Source of the DNA: a bacterium HR37
GTDB taxonomy: Bacteria > Desulfobacterota_D > UBA1144 > Nemesobacterales > CSP1-2
Direction: 5' to 3'
DNA: 64,000 nt
NCBI GenBank assembly: GCA_002898375.1
Contig: BEIN01000005.1
Location: 1-64,000, forward strand
A model generated the notes under the pieces. That model worked only from the letters and a program-made list of their open reading frames with translations, was not told the origin of the DNA and did not search any database. The position numbers were made by a program, and so were the translations under genes. Shown here one piece after another: positions 1 to 63,131 of the stretch; positions within the stretch are counted from its first letter, which is position 1, and every line of letters begins with the position of its first letter.

Positions 1-1
1 G

Positions 2-118
2 GTGGCTAAAGTGCTTGAGATATCCGTTCCAGCAGTAAAATCAAGACTACACAGAGCTAGACTCTTTCTAAGAGACAAACTCTCAGACTACTTCTTTGAA
101 TGGGGGAAGAAATGGTAA
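2..118 (+). CDS. ECF-type RNA polymerase sigma factor, C-terminal fragment
   Basis: The window opens inside a gene; 38 codons remain before a TAA stop. The residues form the end of a sigma region 4 helix-turn-helix: AKVLEIS, then the recognition helix AVKSRLHRARL, a pattern typical of ECF (group IV) sigma factors that bind -35 elements. The stop overlaps the start of a zinc-finger anti-sigma factor in the next frame, the usual sigma/anti-sigma operon arrangement. The N-terminal region 2 lies outside the window, so the subgroup cannot be assigned. Confidence 0.8.
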   Translation: MAKVLEISVPAVKSRLHRARLFLRDKLSDYFFEWGKKW

Positions 119-357
119 TGTGTAAGGAGATTGTAGAAAACATAATCGGTTATATAGAAGCAGAGCTAGACGATAAGACCCTCGAAGAGCTCGAGAAGCA
201 CCTACACGACTGTCCAGAGTGCCAGGCGTTTGTAAGAACATATAAAAAGATGCTTGAGCTAACCGGAAAACTCAAAGAAAGGACCTTTGTAACCCCTGAG
301 ATAAGAAAAAAACTAAAAGAACTACTTATATCCAAAATAAAATACCAAGAGAGCTAA
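118..357 (+). CDS. Zinc-finger anti-sigma factor (zf-HC2 type)
   Basis: A 79-residue protein with the anti-sigma zinc motif H-x3-C-x2-C (HLHDCPEC) near residue 33, preceded by a conserved N-terminal Cys and followed by a charged helix. Family knowledge: such proteins bind and silence the adjacent ECF sigma factor, often in a redox-dependent way. No membrane segment follows the zinc domain, so it is probably cytoplasmic. I chose ATG 118, which overlaps the sigma stop (TAATG) and sits 9 nt after a GGGGGA ribosome binding site; in-frame ATGs at 100 and 112 are alternatives. The signal sensed is unknown. Confidence 0.8.
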   Translation: MCKEIVENIIGYIEAELDDKTLEELEKHLHDCPECQAFVRTYKKMLELTGKLKERTFVTPEIRKKLKELLISKIKYQES

Positions 358-381
358 ACAGCACATTAACGCTGATTGGCC

Positions 382-411
382 TTGACAAAAAGATTTCAAC
401 TATACTATAAT
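382..411 (+). promoter_or_regulatory. Sigma-70 type promoter for the AhpD-like gene
   Basis: Consensus TTGACA at 382-387 and consensus TATAAT at 406-411, separated by 18 bp. Transcription would start near 418, about 40 nt before the ATG at 457. This is one of the best promoter matches in the window. Confidence 0.75.
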
Positions 412-434
412 TAGGACTGACTAGTTAGTTCTAA
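411..434. promoter_or_regulatory. Imperfect 24-bp palindrome across the predicted transcription start
   Basis: Twelve-base half sites match at 10 of 12 positions around the core ACTAGT (420-425). It begins in the last base of the -10 box and covers the predicted start site, the classic position for a repressor operator. The regulator is unknown; a redox-responsive factor is a guess from the downstream gene. Confidence 0.5.
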
Positions 435-456
435 AATATAAAAGGAGGATATAGCA

Positions 457-978
457 ATGGCCAGAATTCCATATGTGGAGAAAGAAAATGCTTCTCCAGA
501 GATAAAAGCTATATACGAACAACTTGAAAAAAAATTTGGCCTTGTACCAAACGTTATAAAGGCAATGGCAAATAGCCCAACCCTTCTTCAGGGATTTATG
601 CCATTTCTTGGAGCCGTTTTGGGACCAAGTGCCGTAGATCCTGCGCTTAAAGAACTTGCCATACTAACAACGACAAAGATCAACGGATGCAGCTACTGTA
701 CAGCTCATCATACAGCAGTTGCCCAACGTGTAGGGCTCTCAAAGGAAAAAATAGAAGCACCGCCAGACCCAAACAATCCAGTTTTTGATGAAAAGGAAAG
801 AGCTGTCATTAGATTTGCAAAAGAGGTAACAGAAAAGGTCTCAGCCAGTGAAGAATCAATCAATGAGCTCCGTAAGTACTTTAACGACTCCCAGATTGCA
901 GAACTAAACCTTGTTGTTGGGGCTTTTAATTTACTAACCCGATTTGCTGACACATTTAAGGTCGAGTTAGAACACTAG
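457..978 (+). CDS. Carboxymuconolactone decarboxylase / AhpD-like family protein
   Basis: A 173-residue all-helical protein of the CMD/AhpD fold. The redox motif C-x2-C followed by histidines (CSYCTAHH, near residue 77) is that of the peroxidase-related branch, which uses the cysteine pair for thiol-dependent peroxide reduction or disulfide relay. It has a good ribosome binding site (AGGAGG) before ATG 457 and its own strong promoter with a palindrome. The neighbouring sigma/anti-sigma pair and the NrtS-like gene 23 nt downstream do not fix a substrate. Peroxide detoxification is the most likely role. Confidence 0.85.
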   Translation: MARIPYVEKENASPEIKAIYEQLEKKFGLVPNVIKAMANSPTLLQGFMPFLGAVLGPSAVDPALKELAILTTTKINGCSYCTAHHTAVAQRVGLSKEKIEAPPDPNNPVFDEKERAVIRFAKEVTEKVSASEESINELRKYFNDSQIAELNLVVGAFNLLTRFADTFKVELEH

Positions 979-1001
979 GGAAAACACCTATAGACACCTG
1001 A

Positions 1002-1256
1002 ATGGGTAAAGAGTTTAGGGAATTTGTAAGGAACTTCTTTAGAAAAGATATTACTGTAAGAGCCATTAAGGTAGCTTTTTTTGTAGCTCCAATTCTTATA
1101 TTGATTAACCACTTCGATACGATAGTTTCATTACGATTCACCCTGGCTTTCTTCCTAAAATCCTTCCTTACCTTCCTTGTTCCTTACTGTGTTTCCGCAT
1201 ACTCATCAGCAAAGGCCAGTCTGGCCCTAGAACAAAACAAGAAAAATATTTATTAG
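1002..1256 (+). CDS. nrtS: Small NrtS-like membrane protein (putative nitrate/nitrite transporter)
   Basis: An 84-residue protein with a short basic N terminus and two hydrophobic segments, about residues 22-42 and 48-68. The patterns VAFFVAPILILINHFD and FLVPYCVSAYSSAKA resemble the NrtS family, small two-helix proteins linked to nitrate/nitrite transport in cyanobacteria. It lies 23 nt downstream of the AhpD-like gene and is probably cotranscribed with it. The family match is from memory of the sequence pattern, and transport has been shown for few members, so function here is an inference. Confidence 0.6.
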   Translation: MGKEFREFVRNFFRKDITVRAIKVAFFVAPILILINHFDTIVSLRFTLAFFLKSFLTFLVPYCVSAYSSAKASLALEQNKKNIY

Positions 1257-1262
1257 AAAATA

Positions 1263-1296
1263 AGGAAGTTCTCCTAAGGAAAACGGAGAACTTCCT
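1263..1296. terminator. Perfect 12-bp hairpin between convergent genes
   Basis: Arms AGGAAGTTCTCC (1263-1274) and its exact complement (1285-1296) flank a 10-base loop. It sits between the plus-strand NrtS-like gene and the minus-strand repeat protein. Downstream on the minus strand the sequence is T-rich, so it fits an intrinsic terminator for the minus-strand gene; on the plus strand the tail is A-rich, so termination there is less certain. Confidence 0.6.
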
Positions 1297-1337
1297 ACAA
1301 AACAACCACAGTTCTAAAAGGTTTTAGAGTTACCCCA

Positions 1338-1742
1338 TTACATACGTGGACTCATCCAGTTAAGATAGAAATCATAGTATGCACCTGAATCTCCAGGACC
1401 GTCAAAACTCTTATTGAATCCAACCCCTGACGATGTTGACCTGATCTTTGCTACATTAGCAGGTCTTTTACCCTTAGGATACATCCAGTCAAGATAGAAA
1501 TCGTAGTAAGTCCCTGAATCCGTGTAGAAATCAACTCTGGGCTCCACATTTGCAGTAAGAGGCTCTATATTAACAGAACTGGGTTTAGGACCAACATTTC
1601 TTTTGGGATACATGTAGTCAAGGTAAAAATTATAGTAGGCTCCAGAATCGGTTTGAAAATCAGTTCGTGGCTCTGAAAAAGCGTAAGATGTTAACAGAGC
1701 TACTGCAAATAAGAGCGAGAAAAAAGGTGTTAATTTCTTCAT
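1338..1742 (-). CDS. Exported protein with three 15-residue repeats spaced exactly 43 residues apart
   Basis: A 134-residue protein with a clear signal peptide (basic MKK, hydrophobic core, cleavage likely after YAFS-type residues near position 23). The mature part carries three copies of D-S-G-[AT]-Y-Y-[ND]-F-Y-L-[DN]-[YW]-M-[YS]-P, starting at residues 32, 75 and 118. The first two copies are preceded by EPR-x-DF, and all three are separated by Gly/Pro/Asn-rich linkers. I do not recognise a family. The aromatic, acidic repeat suggests an extracellular or periplasmic binding or assembly role, but nothing in the sequence fixes it. It has an AGGAGG site and a TATAAT -10 box (1769-1774), so it is probably its own transcription unit downstream of nuoF. 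Confidence 0.75.
   Translation of the reverse strand: MKKLTPFFSLLFAVALLTSYAFSEPRTDFQTDSGAYYNFYLDYMYPKRNVGPKPSSVNIEPLTANVEPRVDFYTDSGTYYDFYLDWMYPKGKRPANVAKIRSTSSGVGFNKSFDGPGDSGAYYDFYLNWMSPRM
1347..1649 (-). repeat. Three in-frame 45-bp repeats with a 129-bp period
   Basis: The copies occupy 1605-1649, 1476-1520 and 1347-1391. They encode the DSG-YY-FYL-M-P motif of the exported repeat protein. The DNA copies differ at many third positions while the peptide is kept, so this is an old duplication under protein-level constraint rather than a fresh tandem repeat. Confidence 0.8.
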
Positions 1743-1924
1743 GTATACTGACCTCCTTAATTGTACTTATTATATTAGATGTTTTTAAATATAAAAAAGT
1801 TTCAAAATATTTGATAAAAATATAGTCCTCTCACACTATCTACTCTTTACAGAAAGGTTTTTTTAACACAACCCAGGATATTGGTGGGATATCTGGTTAA
1901 AGCTAAAAGACTCTACACACTTAA

Positions 1925-3220
1925 TCAATCTTCTTCCCAAACACCCATATATCTGCTTTCAAAAGGACACCTCTTTAGCCTTATATGCTCTTCAAACTCA
2001 TGCCTAAACTTTCTAACTATAGACTCAACAGGCATAGCACAACCATCTGCGAGAGCACAAATTGTTGTTCCCTTCATTTGAGAACAGGCATCAAGTATGG
2101 TATCCAGATACTCCATTCTTCCCCTTCCTTCCTCAATCCTTGTTAACATCTTCTCAAGCCACCATGTACCTTCTCTGCACTGAACACATTGGCCACAGGA
2201 TTCATCTCTGTAGAAATGTGCAAGGTTTTGTGCAACCCTTACCATACAGGTAGATTCATCAATAACGGTTACACCTGCAGTCCCAAGCATAGAGCCTGCT
2301 TTTGCCAGAGAATCAAAATCCATAGGGATATCCAATTCATCTGCGGTAAGCACAGCAGATGAAGAGCCACCAGGAGATACAGCCTTTATGGCTCTACCAA
2401 ATCTCGTCCCCTCACCGTACTCATAAATCAACTCGCGTAGAGGAATACCAAGAGGAAGCTCATAGAGGCCTGGTCTGTTTACACAACCACTAAGTCCGTA
2501 TATCTTTGTTCCCGTATTCTTAGGGGTACCAATGCTTGCAAACCAATCCGCACCTCTGTTTATTATATGTGGTACACAAGCCAGTGTTTCAACGTTGTTT
2601 ATGATAGTTGGGCAACCAAAAAGTCCAACCTGTGCAGGAAAAGGCGGTTTTGGTCTTGGCTCCCCATTTTTTCCTTCTATTGACTCCAAAAGACCAGTTT
2701 CCTCGCCACATATATAGGCACCCGCTCCTCTAAACAAAATCACATCCAAACTGAATCCAGAACCCAAAATGTTCTCACCAAGAAACCCTTTCTCATAAGC
2801 TTCCCGAATAGCTCTCTCTAAGATTCTTGCTCCTTTTGGCATCTCTCCTCTTATGTATATGTAGCACTTGTGTGCATTAATGGCATAACAAGCAATTATA
2901 ATTCCCTCAAGCATCTGATGCGGATCGCGCTCTATAATCTCTCTGTCCTTAAAACTCCCAGGTTCACTCTCATCGGCATTACAACACAAATAAACAGGTT
3001 TTTTAGAATCTCTTGGAATAAAACTCCACTTTATTCCAGTTGGAAACCCTGCTCCTCCCCGTCCGCGAAGACCGGATTTCTTTACCTCTTCAATCACCTC
3101 AAGTGGATCCATTCTAAGGGCTTTTGGAAGTGCAGTATATCCACCAGAAGCAATGTAGGATTCAATTGTTTCCGAGTTGGCTCTATCCACATAGCTGCGT
3201 ATAATTCTCATCTCAGGCAT
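1925..3220 (-). CDS. nuoF: NADH-quinone oxidoreductase subunit F (NuoF/Nqo1)
   Basis: A 431-residue protein, full length for Nqo1. The glycine-rich nucleotide/FMN region is at 51-65 (LRGRGGAGFPTGIKW) and continues with the NADH-binding signature GAGAYICGEETGLLES (165-180). The N3 [4Fe-4S] cluster cysteines are Cys342, Cys345, Cys348 and Cys388. It would take electrons from NADH through FMN to the iron-sulfur chain. There is no nuoE or nuoG next to it and no extra ferredoxin or thioredoxin-like domain as in hydrogenase HydB, so partners must be elsewhere. It lies 86 nt downstream of cbiO with its own possible promoter. Confidence 0.9.
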   Translation of the reverse strand: MPEMRIIRSYVDRANSETIESYIASGGYTALPKALRMDPLEVIEEVKKSGLRGRGGAGFPTGIKWSFIPRDSKKPVYLCCNADESEPGSFKDREIIERDPHQMLEGIIIACYAINAHKCYIYIRGEMPKGARILERAIREAYEKGFLGENILGSGFSLDVILFRGAGAYICGEETGLLESIEGKNGEPRPKPPFPAQVGLFGCPTIINNVETLACVPHIINRGADWFASIGTPKNTGTKIYGLSGCVNRPGLYELPLGIPLRELIYEYGEGTRFGRAIKAVSPGGSSSAVLTADELDIPMDFDSLAKAGSMLGTAGVTVIDESTCMVRVAQNLAHFYRDESCGQCVQCREGTWWLEKMLTRIEEGRGRMEYLDTILDACSQMKGTTICALADGCAMPVESIVRKFRHEFEEHIRLKRCPFESRYMGVWEED

Positions 3221-3256
3221 ACTGGGCTCTCCAAGGCTTATTTATATTCAGCATTA

Positions 3257-3284
3257 ATTTTAAATGGATTAAAAGTGTTGGCAA
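3257..3284 (-). promoter_or_regulatory. Possible promoter for nuoF
   Basis: On the minus strand TTGCCA (3279-3284) and TAAAAT (3257-3262) are separated by 16 bp, in the gap between cbiO and nuoF. It suggests nuoF can be transcribed apart from the metal-transport operon. Confidence 0.4.
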
Positions 3285-3306
3285 GAAAAAGTTACGAATC
3301 CGCAAG

Positions 3307-4164
3307 CTATAGATGCAAAGTTTTTTTCCTTGAAGTCATAATCTCATCTGCAATAACCTTTGCTGCCTCTTCTACAGTTAGTGAAATATCTAACTCTACA
3401 CCGTATTTCTTTAACTCAAAGAACAGGGAACCAAGAACAGGTGGCTCTATGTGATTTCTTGAGAGAAGATCCAGTTGAGCAAATATCTCCTTTGGAGAAC
3501 CCTTTGTAACGATTTCTCCTCCTGCTGCCATGATGTATACAGTATCTGCAATAAGCGGAACCGTATCTATATTGTGGGTAGAGAGCAGTATAGCGGTACC
3601 ATTTTCCCTATTGATCCTATTAAGCAGATGTATAAGATCGGTTCTGCAAACAGGGTCCAGTCCTTCAAAAGGTTCATCAAGAATAAGGAGTTCAGGTTTT
3701 GTAACAAGTGCTCCTGCAAGCCCGACTTTCGTTTTCTCCCCTCCACTTAGATAATGGGGAACCTTATCTTTTAAATGCTTTATATCCAGTTTTTCAAGCA
3801 CCTCTTCTACCATTCTTTCAATATCATCTTTTCTGTATCCATAGTTACGTAAGGAGAAAGAAACATCATCCCACACTGTAGGAGCGATAATCTGCTCTTC
3901 CACATTCTGAATGAGTACTCCAATGCGCTCTCTTATTTTCGTATAATCCCTGGCAGGATCAACCCCAAAAACCCTAATCGTCCCCTGTGAAGCTTTGAGA
4001 AGACCCAGAAGATGGAAAATCAAGGTTGATTTTCCACTACCGTTTGGTCCTAAAAGAACAACCTTCTCTCCTCTACGAACAACAAAATCTATCCCCCGGA
4101 AGTGAAGCACCGTTCCATCAGGGTATGTGTATTTAAGTCCACTTACTCTTACTAGCTCTTCCAC
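3307..4164 (-). CDS. cbiO: Cobalt/nickel ECF-type ABC transporter, ATP-binding protein
   Basis: A 285-residue ABC ATPase with Walker A GPNGSGKST, ABC signature LSGGE and Walker B LLILDEP, followed by the H-loop (STHN). It is the energizing subunit for the substrate-capture protein CbiM and coupling protein CbiQ encoded just upstream. The GTG start overlaps the end of cbiQ by 13 nt, indicating translational coupling. The C-terminal extension after the nucleotide-binding domain is typical of CbiO/NikO. The metal (Co or Ni) cannot be told from this subunit. Confidence 0.92.
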   Translation of the reverse strand: MEELVRVSGLKYTYPDGTVLHFRGIDFVVRRGEKVVLLGPNGSGKSTLIFHLLGLLKASQGTIRVFGVDPARDYTKIRERIGVLIQNVEEQIIAPTVWDDVSFSLRNYGYRKDDIERMVEEVLEKLDIKHLKDKVPHYLSGGEKTKVGLAGALVTKPELLILDEPFEGLDPVCRTDLIHLLNRINRENGTAILLSTHNIDTVPLIADTVYIMAAGGEIVTKGSPKEIFAQLDLLSRNHIEPPVLGSLFFELKKYGVELDISLTVEEAAKVIADEIMTSRKKTLHL

Positions 4165-21171: not shown

Positions 21172-22647
21172 ATGGTGTACCTAGAAGACAGAATAAAGGT
21201 CGTATGCACAAAACTCAGGTTATGGTTCTTTCATGAAACATGGGCACTACCGGTTGATATATTCCGGATACTTGTAGGAATCCTCTGCGTTTTTTACTAC
21301 TTCTTTCTATTTCTCGAAGTAAGGGACTTTAGCAGTCCCGACGGACTTGTAAGCCATGAGTTCTATCTGGAACACTTCTGGTGGTTAAACATCAATCTTA
21401 TACAACCAGGTACCCCAACCATTGTATTTTACGTGCTGATAGCATTAGCCTGGATAGGCTCCTGGGCAATTATCACAGGATACCGTACAAAACTGGTTGC
21501 GGGGATTCTTTTTTTGATAACCGTATGTATTCAACGCTGGAATTTTGCAGTAATGTTTGTTGACGATGGGATAATGCACCTTGCACTATTCTGGTTAGTG
21601 CTTCTGCCGGTAGGGAAAACCCTTGTTTTAAATGAATTGCTTAAGGAAGGGAAAGGATGCCTGTCAAAGTGGGTCCGGATAAAGGTTCCGGGTGTTGCAG
21701 TAAGTTGCCTTACTTTTAATATCTGCTGGGCTTACCTTATAGCCGGACTTACGAAACTAACAAGTCCGATGTGGCAAGAGGGAGTTGCCCTTTATTCGAT
21801 TCTAATTCTGCCAATTTCCCGAATGCCCTATTTCTGGCAACCAGAACACCTTGGGATTTTAAAAGTAGCAAACTATGCAGCAGTTATCACAGAAATAGCT
21901 CTTCCATTCCTTCTCCTATCTCCTAAAGGATCCCTTAGAAAATGGTTGGGGCTTATACTTCAAATTCCCTTTCACCTGGGTATTATCCTTACTTTAAAGA
22001 TCCCATTTGCAAACTTTGCCTTCATTGCCTCAGGTGTCCTGTTCTTCAGAGAAGAGATAATGGAGGCAATCAGGAAAGGATTTGAGGGGCCAAAACCTGA
22101 GTTAGAACCAAAGGTCAACAAAAAAGCATACATATACTCGGCAATAGCTATAGTTTTTGTTACGCTTGTTTGCCTTTCAACACTTAGAAGAATACCACCC
22201 TTTAAACCCATAGGCCTGTTTGCAACAAAGGTTCTATGGCCAGTGGGTATATCACAGGATTACCGTTTGTTTGATTGGATAGACAGAACCAACTACCATA
22301 TGGTACAGAGAGCTATATTTTACCCTCTTGGAAGTACCCAACCAAAAGAGATAAAACCCACAAAGATCATTCCTCGCTCCGTTCGCTATGCCCTTATCCT
22401 AGCCCGTGTATACGATGTTTACTGGTTGCTACACATACCACCTGCGCTAAAACCCCAAATAGAGAAGGAAACACGACGCCGTATAGGAAAACGTGCTTGC
22501 AGGGTGCTTGGGAGCTCCGGAAGACTCATTCTTGAGACAACTATCCACCATATAACTCCAGATAACGTTGAACGAAAGAAAAGGCCAAGGATAGATGTGA
22601 TGAGCTTTTGGTGTTTGAACGGAAAGTTGGTTGACAATATCCCCTAG
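21172..22647 (+). CDS. HTTM-domain membrane protein (vitamin K-dependent carboxylase-like)
   Basis: A 491-residue protein with several hydrophobic helices in the first 320 residues and a soluble C-terminal part. The start LPVDIFRILVGILCVFYY and the segments HFWWLN, RWNFAVMFVDDGIMHLALFW and ICWAYLIAGLTKLTSPMWQEG match the HTTM (horizontally transferred transmembrane) domain found in gamma-carboxylases and many bacterial proteins of unknown function. No thioredoxin, quinone or carboxylation partner is adjacent. Catalysis is therefore not claimed. It is a single-gene unit with its own promoter. Confidence 0.78.
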   Translation: MVYLEDRIKVVCTKLRLWFFHETWALPVDIFRILVGILCVFYYFFLFLEVRDFSSPDGLVSHEFYLEHFWWLNINLIQPGTPTIVFYVLIALAWIGSWAIITGYRTKLVAGILFLITVCIQRWNFAVMFVDDGIMHLALFWLVLLPVGKTLVLNELLKEGKGCLSKWVRIKVPGVAVSCLTFNICWAYLIAGLTKLTSPMWQEGVALYSILILPISRMPYFWQPEHLGILKVANYAAVITEIALPFLLLSPKGSLRKWLGLILQIPFHLGIILTLKIPFANFAFIASGVLFFREEIMEAIRKGFEGPKPELEPKVNKKAYIYSAIAIVFVTLVCLSTLRRIPPFKPIGLFATKVLWPVGISQDYRLFDWIDRTNYHMVQRAIFYPLGSTQPKEIKPTKIIPRSVRYALILARVYDVYWLLHIPPALKPQIEKETRRRIGKRACRVLGSSGRLILETTIHHITPDNVERKKRPRIDVMSFWCLNGKLVDNIP

Positions 22648-60188: not shown

Positions 60189-63131
60189 CTAAAACACTAT
60201 CTCGGCCACCATTTCCCTACCATTCCTTAAAAACCTGACCTTTACTACACTTCCTCTGTCCTTGTAAAAAAGTGCAATCTTTAGGTCATCAAAATCCCTT
60301 ACAGGATAGCTATCAAGGGAAATGATGATATCTCCTACTCTCAATCCAGAATTTCTTGCTATGCTTTCTTTTTTAAATCCGGATACCTTTAAACCATTAT
60401 CCTCTTTCACAACAAGAATACCAAGTTCAGGTGATCCCAGGGCCTCAATCTTTTCCGGATAAAGGATATAATCACCTATACCAATGTCGGGTTCTTCATC
60501 GAGGAGTATTATAGAGTAATCGTAACCGTTTCTTCTTAAAACCCTTTTTGGTATACCCCAGCCGTATTTAACATGCTCACTTCCGGCTAAAACAACCATC
60601 TGATAATCCCTGTTCTCCCTGAGAAAACCATCTATGGATTCAGCCATATACTCATCCCAGATTATCTGTGCCTGGAGAAAGAACTCAAACTTGTTCCCAC
60701 CAACCTCAGGATGCCCGGAGAAGATCCTCTTTAGCCTTTCCCTATAACCCTTAACAGAAAAATCCATTTGAGAGGGAAGGTGTTTTCTTTCTTCCTCCGC
60801 TAATGATTCTATTCCGCCTTGTGCAACCTTTTTTACAATGCTGCTATCAATATTTAAGGCCACTACTGGAATCCTTTTTGCCCTGGCAAAATCTATTATC
60901 GGTTTGTATAGATTATAGTCAAATCCCCATCTCTTAAAGTACTCCGTTTGCCTGAGAAACTGCACCTCATCTATTTTTCCTTCTATATAATCGTCTATAA
61001 CATGCTGGAAGGGTTTTTGAAACATCTCCATTCCTATAGCAACCTTTCTTCCCTCTCCATATAAAGACTTAATGATATTTAGCTGGGCCACATGATGAGC
61101 ATACCGGTCATGACGCTCCCCTATGTATATGATCTTTTTATCCTTTACCGCGTTAACTACACTCTCCAGATTACCTGCTAAGGAAACAGGTAAAGCCCTT
61201 ACCGGCTCCCTTACCTTAAGAACAATGCCCCTCATTGATTCCTCTACCCTACTGTATACGTTCTCCCCGCCGTTAAAAGAAAGAGATGAGTACTTATCAA
61301 GATGCAATAATTTCCTAAAGCCAAGCTCCACCTCAAGCTTTGATTTACCCTGCAGAATGGCAACCACTTCATCCTCATTCCACGGATTTCTCCTTACAAA
61401 GATACTAAAACCCGCATCGGGAAAACCGATTCTTCCAAAAAGCCTTTTCACCAAAGGATTTTCTCCATCACAAACAACAAAGGAGCTGGATCTTATCTCT
61501 TTAAATGCAAATTCTTCTGGCATTTTTAAAATAGTTTCTTTACCCTTTCCTGTAAAGAAACCAGCTATATAAGCACACCTTTCCCTGCTCTCCCCTGACT
61601 CTGGCAGGACAAAATAGAGCTTTTTCTTTCCCAGCATTCTTGAGATAACCGGTGGAAATTCATCGGTTGTAAGCCTTCTAAAGACATCGTAGTTCTCATC
61701 AACCACAATCCTTAACGGCTCATCTTCTAAATAGAAGGTAAACCTTTCACTCCTTCTAGAGGATTCGATTAACTTGGTAATCCTTTTACCACCTGAAAAG
61801 TAAATTGAAATCAGTATAAGCAGTCTATAAACATCTCCTCTCTGCACAATATCAAATGTTAAGCGAAATTTCCCCTTGTGGATTTTAAGCCCTACATTCT
61901 CAATTCCTATCTCCGGAGCTCCTACCCTATACAACCACTGGTTAAAAAACCAGCTGAGATCACCTCCGTACCTTCTCTCAAATGCCACTCTTATATCATC
62001 CCAAGATACCCTCTTAAACCCGCCCTCAACTATGAGATCCCTAAGGGAAGAATAAAAAACCCTTCCTCCAACCGTTTTCATAAGCATATGAAAAACCATG
62101 GCAGATTTTCCATAACCTATAGCCCTTGACAGGTTATCACGTGGATACCTAAACTCATTCAGAGGAAACTCTCTTTTTCCCCCAGCATAAGAGTTGTACT
62201 TTACAAGCAGGCTCTTTCGGTACTCCCAACCCCTGCCCTTAAGTTCTTCATATAGATGGTCTGCAAGGTAAGTTGTGATACCCTCAGCCCAGTTACCTCC
62301 CTTAGGGTTAACGTAGAGGTAGCTACCAAACCACTGATGGAGAATCTCGTGTCCCAAAGAGGTTTCAACGATGAAAGGAAGGTTTAAAACCTTTTTGCCA
62401 AAAACAATAAGTGTGGGAGCAGAATACCCTACAGGCAAGTTAACCTCTACAATTGAGAGCCTTTTATAGGGGAATTTATAAAGAACATCCTCGTATCTAT
62501 CTATGTACCTTCTGGTGTATTCAATATAGCCTTCTGAGAGATGATGCTCTTCCCTGAAGAAGTAAGTGTAAATGTTAATTCCCTTATACTGTTTCCATCT
62601 CACCCTAAATTCCTTAGAAGCTATAAGGTGGATTTTCTCAAGCGGATGGGGAAAACCAAATTCAAATACCCGATACCCACCTTCATTATAACTTCTTACC
62701 GCTTCAGCCTCGGATACCGCTTTAAAACCTCTTGGTAACCTAACGGTAAGATTATAAACAGAGAGGTCATCCACAAACGGATACCATCGATCCAGTAAGA
62801 CCACATTTCGTTCATCTATACTGTTCTCAAAAAGCCCCTCATAGACAATAACAATCGGTTTACCTTTCTCTCCTGAGATAACGATGCTGCCACCCGTTTT
62901 CTCTAAAGGCAGGGAGCTAACCTCAACAATATTTAACCCTTCCGTATAAAAGGTTACATATCCCGTGTAATCCGGGATAAACTCTGCCCTACCAATCACT
63001 TTTGATTTATGTGTATCTATGTTGACCTCCAGGTTATACAGGGAAGATGCTCTTAAGCTTAGTGGATAAAATAGAAGCAAAAGAAACGGATAGAGAGCAA
63101 ACACCAATCTCATAACAAACCTCGATAACAC
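60189..63131 (-). CDS. Exported M1-peptidase-like / ChaN-like / PDZ fusion protein
   Basis: A 980-residue protein. Signal peptide at 1-29. An M1 aminopeptidase-like catalytic region includes HEILH at 261-265, followed by QW and Glu283 (17 residues later, where family members usually have 18). A ChaN/DUF399-type domain spans about 655-895, with IGERHDRYAHH (670-680), GMEMFQ and LAGSEHVKYGWGIP (848-861), a haem- or iron-binding fold in the known members. A C-terminal PDZ domain covers 900-980 (GLRVGDIIISLD). The missing canonical GxMEN may mean a changed substrate. A role in envelope peptide or haem handling is inferred. Confidence 0.85.
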   Translation of the reverse strand: MLSRFVMRLVFALYPFLLLLFYPLSLRASSLYNLEVNIDTHKSKVIGRAEFIPDYTGYVTFYTEGLNIVEVSSLPLEKTGGSIVISGEKGKPIVIVYEGLFENSIDERNVVLLDRWYPFVDDLSVYNLTVRLPRGFKAVSEAEAVRSYNEGGYRVFEFGFPHPLEKIHLIASKEFRVRWKQYKGINIYTYFFREEHHLSEGYIEYTRRYIDRYEDVLYKFPYKRLSIVEVNLPVGYSAPTLIVFGKKVLNLPFIVETSLGHEILHQWFGSYLYVNPKGGNWAEGITTYLADHLYEELKGRGWEYRKSLLVKYNSYAGGKREFPLNEFRYPRDNLSRAIGYGKSAMVFHMLMKTVGGRVFYSSLRDLIVEGGFKRVSWDDIRVAFERRYGGDLSWFFNQWLYRVGAPEIGIENVGLKIHKGKFRLTFDIVQRGDVYRLLILISIYFSGGKRITKLIESSRRSERFTFYLEDEPLRIVVDENYDVFRRLTTDEFPPVISRMLGKKKLYFVLPESGESRERCAYIAGFFTGKGKETILKMPEEFAFKEIRSSSFVVCDGENPLVKRLFGRIGFPDAGFSIFVRRNPWNEDEVVAILQGKSKLEVELGFRKLLHLDKYSSLSFNGGENVYSRVEESMRGIVLKVREPVRALPVSLAGNLESVVNAVKDKKIIYIGERHDRYAHHVAQLNIIKSLYGEGRKVAIGMEMFQKPFQHVIDDYIEGKIDEVQFLRQTEYFKRWGFDYNLYKPIIDFARAKRIPVVALNIDSSIVKKVAQGGIESLAEEERKHLPSQMDFSVKGYRERLKRIFSGHPEVGGNKFEFFLQAQIIWDEYMAESIDGFLRENRDYQMVVLAGSEHVKYGWGIPKRVLRRNGYDYSIILLDEEPDIGIGDYILYPEKIEALGSPELGILVVKEDNGLKVSGFKKESIARNSGLRVGDIIISLDSYPVRDFDDLKIALFYKDRGSVVKVRFLRNGREMVAEIVF

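Follow-up and report, generated by a model that had tools for sequence, protein, structure and literature searches.

The open reading frame at positions 1338-1742 on the minus strand of the window (the whole 64,000-nucleotide stretch analysed) encodes a small protein that begins with what by eye is an export signal and contains a short aromatic motif in triplicate. It represents a genuine, previously unnamed protein family whose motif is well defined, whose distribution is narrow and whose function is unproven. Because strict conservation of the motif is combined with loose spacers, the explanation that fits best, although we put it forward only tentatively, is that a secreted, largely unfolded protein uses three equivalent motifs to dock onto a partner in the cell envelope, possibly in connection with stress. 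Under this scenario, proline-rich spacers of equal length would hold the three short motifs apart, each motif would fold as it binds, either to one and the same folded partner or to a site that several partners share, and the three jointly would provide avidity or bridge partners in the envelope. Production of the protein would probably be linked to an ECF sigma/anti-sigma system and hence to envelope or oxidative stress. The conservation of the motif is a direct observation; disorder, docking and regulation are what we infer. The relevant features of the window are the following.

1..118, plus strand: ECF sigma-factor gene, 3' end only, truncated at the contig end
100..357, plus strand: zf-HC2 (zinc-binding) anti-sigma-like protein (Pfam PF13490, E 8.8e-9)
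457..978, plus strand: carboxymuconolactone decarboxylase/AhpD-like peroxidase-related protein
1002..1256, plus strand: NrtS-like small membrane protein (NCBIfam NF038050, E 4.7e-9)
1264..1295, minus strand: terminator, consisting of a hairpin of 11 perfect base pairs and a U-rich tail (-19.9 kcal/mol, z -5.6)
1338..1742, minus strand: open reading frame with ATG start, 134-aa secreted protein with three aromatic motifs (from sequence and homologues)
1344..1391, minus strand: motif copy 3, residues 118-133, DSGAYYDFYLNWMSPR
1473..1520, minus strand: motif copy 2, residues 75-90, DSGTYYDFYLDWMYPK
1602..1649, minus strand: motif copy 1, residues 32-47, DSGAYYNFYLDYMYPK
1674..1742, minus strand: predicted signal peptide, approximately residues 1-23 (read from the sequence by eye)
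1752..1758, minus strand: strong ribosome-binding site AAGGAGG (from sequence)
1776..1801, minus strand: promoter-like element AACTTTT-N14-ATCTA, at -59 from the ATG

Given the ribosome-binding site, the terminator hairpin, the signal peptide and the three motif copies, 1338-1742 is a real gene; GGAGG is also present upstream of the genes of the relatives. The signal peptide has a predicted cleavage site near AFS/EPR in the window protein and AxA in relatives (by eye in both cases), and the product is probably periplasmic. It contains no cysteine, and Phe, Tyr and Trp account for about 20% of its mature part.

In agreement with the preliminary description, the three copies start at residues 32, 75 and 118, each with DSG, and the period of 43 residues is exact in both intervals; the sequence matches itself with a score of 170 at offset 43, whereas 2000 shuffles of the mature part reach at most 49 at any offset. 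The copies are non-identical, and, since most of them have a PRTDF-like stretch ahead of the core, the repeat unit exceeds the 15 residues originally assigned to it. The divergence of third codon positions that had been reported is evident for copies 1 and 2, where the 48-nucleotide segments differ at 2, 1 and 9 sites by codon position, but the excess is less clear for copies 1 and 3 (4, 3 and 8) and copies 2 and 3 (4, 2 and 5).

A profile search of 57 genomes of the phylum identified six copies of the gene in five genomes, namely the window genome (G000), G001, G003 (two copies, G003a and G003b), G005 (where the gene is cut by the contig end) and G035. A scan of contigs from one genome per species, which is sensitive to close relatives only, yielded three loci in two genomes, Desulfobacterota bacterium AH_259_B03_O07 (both G003 copies) and Deltaproteobacteria bacterium NC_groundwater_453 (G005). 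The repeat-unit search of 386 genomes matched seven, the five family genomes and two by chance, and added nothing credible. Weak matches in G280:C15 and G000:C7, read by eye as threonyl-tRNA synthetase, and in G007, covering 13 residues only, were dropped. Among viral contigs, 68 stretches carried a pattern and none was a relative; no relative was found in phages, and the plasmid search gave one match at E 9, which was ignored, whereas the G035 protein as query gave none. For the zf gene of G035, no second genome had a strongly matching orthologue, and hence no further repeat gene could be located by position. Based on the profile search of 57 genomes and the repeat-unit search of 386, the family is real and narrow within the genomes searched. 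Both G003 repeat genes (L003 3386-4224 and L099 8312-9166) lie within a duplicated segment (868 columns, 83.9% identical), in one copy of which the first motif is damaged.

The window protein has no match in Pfam, NCBIfam, PHROGs or PDB (matches were accepted above the curated cut-off or, for PHROGs, at E below 0.001), and none of the relatives reaches the cut-off, the best match being that of the G035 protein to Pfam ASH (21.2 bits against 27). Among the papers listed by searches of the open-library literature, no title or abstract start describes this protein, and the motif letters occur in 0 papers; Rfam gives no match over positions 1-4000 of the window. Thus, no described family was found to contain this repeat, as the preliminary description had supposed. 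Ricin-type beta-trefoil proteins contain three repeats of about 42 residues, and the window protein resembles them in having three units of about 43 residues; in contrast to these proteins, however, it lacks QxW and a Pfam match, its third unit ends at the motif, the spacers in the family vary from 34 to 43 residues, and the low-confidence models contain no strands.

A weak match (E 0.0024) was the starting point of a comparison with proteins that we take to be ActE-like (cytochrome c N-terminus, alternative complex III). In pairwise comparisons, the G035 protein scored 78 with the ActE-like protein of G010 (maximum of 57 in 1000 shuffles), 56 with that of G035 itself (shuffle maximum of 50) and not above shuffles with that of G000, and for the window protein none of the three comparisons exceeded the shuffles. 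With the ActE profile of the mature N-terminus, the G035 protein ranked 18th among the listed non-ActE open reading frames (1598 searched), inside its own shuffle range, and the profile including signal peptides gave 6.5 bits. Kinship with the ActE-like N-terminus was therefore rejected, the profile being above neither decoys nor shuffles.

The motif is more conserved than the spacers in the family. Over 15 aligned copies with the consensus Y-[DN]-F-Y-x-[DN]-W-M-x-P-[KR], Y, F and Y never vary, and D, W and M after them are present in 14; the order of the residues is preserved, not the composition alone. By contrast, the spacers diverge, with identity between spacers 1 and 2 of 7/34 in the window protein and 9/34 in G001, a pattern that favors docking motifs, although the spacers are similar to each other within G003a (32/36) and G035 (27/43), which speaks against it. 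The spacing is equal inside every complete protein and the period varies between proteins (43/43, 43/43, 45/45 and 52/52). In the window protein and G001, spacer length is the same despite differing spacer sequence, which hints at a constraint on length and would agree with docking; nevertheless, equal spacing may be inherited from a tandem duplication. No relative has more than three motifs, and the G003b paralogue has lost most of motif 1 and retains two intact copies; the variation of copy number in steps of 43 residues that had been proposed as a check is not seen, the relatives having three copies at periods of 43, 45 or 52.

Comparison of the window gene with that of G001 (dN 0.33, dS 2.09, the latter near saturation) indicates purifying selection on the protein, as originally suggested and as expected of docking motifs. 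The same comparison bears on a different reading, under which the protein belongs to the envelope, evolves fast and is specific to its lineage, its repeats having arisen by chance duplication without the number of three mattering in particular. Presence in only five of the 57 genomes, the loss of motif 1 in one paralogue and the absence of the gene at the syntenic place in G002 would be compatible with such a protein, but dN is much below dS, and the G035 protein, which is 32-42% identical to the other full-length proteins, retains three motifs; we consider this reading improbable, and if it were nothing else, the interest of the family would be limited to annotation.

AlphaFold models built on six and five sequences have mean pLDDT values of 46.4 and 49.0. 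In both, each of the three motifs carries a short helix, and the signal peptide is the only other structured part, except for a three-residue turn in one of them. As weak evidence, the models fit an unfolded chain with three short motifs, and helices on the motifs even at low confidence would suit docking; against this, the low pLDDT may stem from the small number of sequences and not from disorder. Neither the hydrophobic moment nor the periodicity of conservation decides between helix and strand: in the f1 copies, the strand-type moment (0.35-0.38 at 170 degrees) exceeds that at 100 degrees (0.16-0.24), and G035 is mixed. The alternation Y-x-F-x-L-x-W-x-Y and this strand-type moment would be expected if the motifs were amphipathic strands of a structural or surface protein, stacking into a fibre or attaching to a surface polymer. 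The alternation, however, is weaker in G035, where L is replaced by S or V and the last Y by S, both models show helices, there are at most three motifs, and no surface-anchor domain was found by Pfam in the window protein or its relatives; a structural role accordingly appears rather unlikely.

Even less probable is that the protein is a precursor processed into three similar peptides that act as signals or antimicrobials or carry modifications. Such a precursor would account for the near-equality of the three motifs, for P-[KR] after each of them and for the secretion signal, but no conserved protease, transporter or maturase was noticed among the open reading frames read around the copies. 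The sole RiPP match, to a multi-core precursor of the AmcA type, is confined to the G035 protein (17.3 bits against a cut-off of 40, E 0.004) and covers residues 108-131, that is, a spacer and not the motif. Thus, among the fibre, ligand-binding array and precursor envisaged in the preliminary description, the array, in the form of docking motifs, is the best although unproven, and the other two gain no support.

In the window, the gene order is the sigma-factor 3' end, zf-HC2, the AhpD-like gene, the NrtS-like gene, the repeat gene in convergent orientation and nuoF. In G002, sigma, zf and nuoF adjoin and the repeat gene is absent from the syntenic place; accordingly, the three genes between zf and nuoF are either an insertion in the window or a loss in G002. 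The arrangement differs at every locus: in G001, an AhpD-like fragment is convergent to the repeat gene and overlaps a sigma fragment, and a protoglobin gene is a neighbour; a divergent sigma-zf pair is found 1.4 kb away from the G003b copy; the G035 copy stands behind another, different sigma-zf pair and opposite a 1-Cys peroxiredoxin gene; and the G003a copy (contig C210) has no sigma gene nearby and a cytochrome P460 downstream. An ECF sigma gene is thus located near four of the five assessable copies (G005, where the gene runs off the contig, was left out), which under a rough independence null with 9-30 sigma region-4 matches per genome has a probability of about 1e-6, an optimistic value as related copies are taken as independent. 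This association favors the stress-linked docking scenario, but imperfectly, given that G003a has no sigma gene, G002 lacks the repeat gene, and most of the genomes with zf-HC2 orthologues (26 of 57) lack it as well, so that the repeat gene is not an obligate part of the sigma/zf system.

At L097 12096-12443, the C-terminal AhpD-like fragment overlaps the ECF sigma fragment, with a transposase-like open reading frame just beyond, possibly a rearrangement or an assembly joint. L003 1489-2202 (minus strand) encodes an ECF sigma factor with an N-terminal remnant resembling the cytochrome P460 at L099 9223-9771 (57.7% over 26 aa), a sign of local rearrangement. Elsewhere in the window, 60189-63131 (minus strand) encodes a 980-aa protein with an unusual combination of M1 peptidase, ChaN/Tiki haem-binding and PDZ domains, and 21172-22647 (plus strand) a 491-aa membrane-like protein with no Pfam match at E 0.001.

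The upstream element, which occurs once in the window (both strands), has similar counterparts at -61 to -63 in G001, G005 and G035, so that AAC[CT]TTT-N14-ATCTA is found at -59 to -63 in four of the six copies and is absent from the two G003 copies; because the element was derived from these very sequences, the argument from conservation is partly circular. ECF promoters typically have AAC in their -35 region, and this element may be one. Two BcrS sites also contain GTAACCTTT (PMC8315932). A genome-wide regulon defined by the element was not supported by a search of seven genomes, in which matches showed no excess over the control and one-mismatch matches were fewer than for the reversed control.

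The closest parallel among known systems is with MrpX and BcrX, methionine-rich periplasmic peptides with MXKDX repeats under an ECF sigma factor, which are likewise small exported repeat proteins encoded beside an ECF sigma/anti-sigma pair (PMC8315932, PMC4623255). The likeness extends to the ECF sigma gene near most copies; the repeat gene, however, is directly behind sigma-zf only in G035, the motif is aromatic rather than Met-rich, the regulator differs in being of the zf-HC2 type, and no counterpart of the MsrPQ (YedYZ) genes of their operon was noticed on reading the lists of neighbouring open reading frames. The main rival explanation, because of the neighbouring genes, is an oxidant sink acting in the manner of MrpX/BcrX, in which a protein controlled by an ECF sigma factor would use its exposed Tyr, Trp and Met to remove peroxide, hypochlorite or radicals from the periplasm. 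Apart from the sigma genes and the BcrS-BcrX precedent (PMC8315932), this explanation would draw on the AhpD-like (window; fragment in G001), 1-Cys peroxiredoxin, cytochrome P460 and protoglobin neighbours and on an aromatic content of 16-20% in the mature proteins of the window and G001. Nevertheless, the mature window protein has only 4 Met in 112 residues and the relatives 1-6, strict conservation that includes the poorly oxidised Phe would be needless for a sink, and no MsrPQ-like genes were noticed among the neighbouring open reading frames read; we regard this possibility as unlikely.

In the most specific form of the docking scenario, an unfolded, exported trivalent adaptor with exactly three copies of a new aromatic motif at fixed spacing, commanded by ECF stress sigma factors, would gather or bridge three copies of one envelope complex, which we consider a long shot. 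If the motif does serve docking, the family would provide a new short motif acting outside the cytoplasm, three per protein and fifteen copies aligned, whose built-in replicates would make the binding residues easy to test, and a concrete ECF-linked envelope effector for an unstudied lineage.
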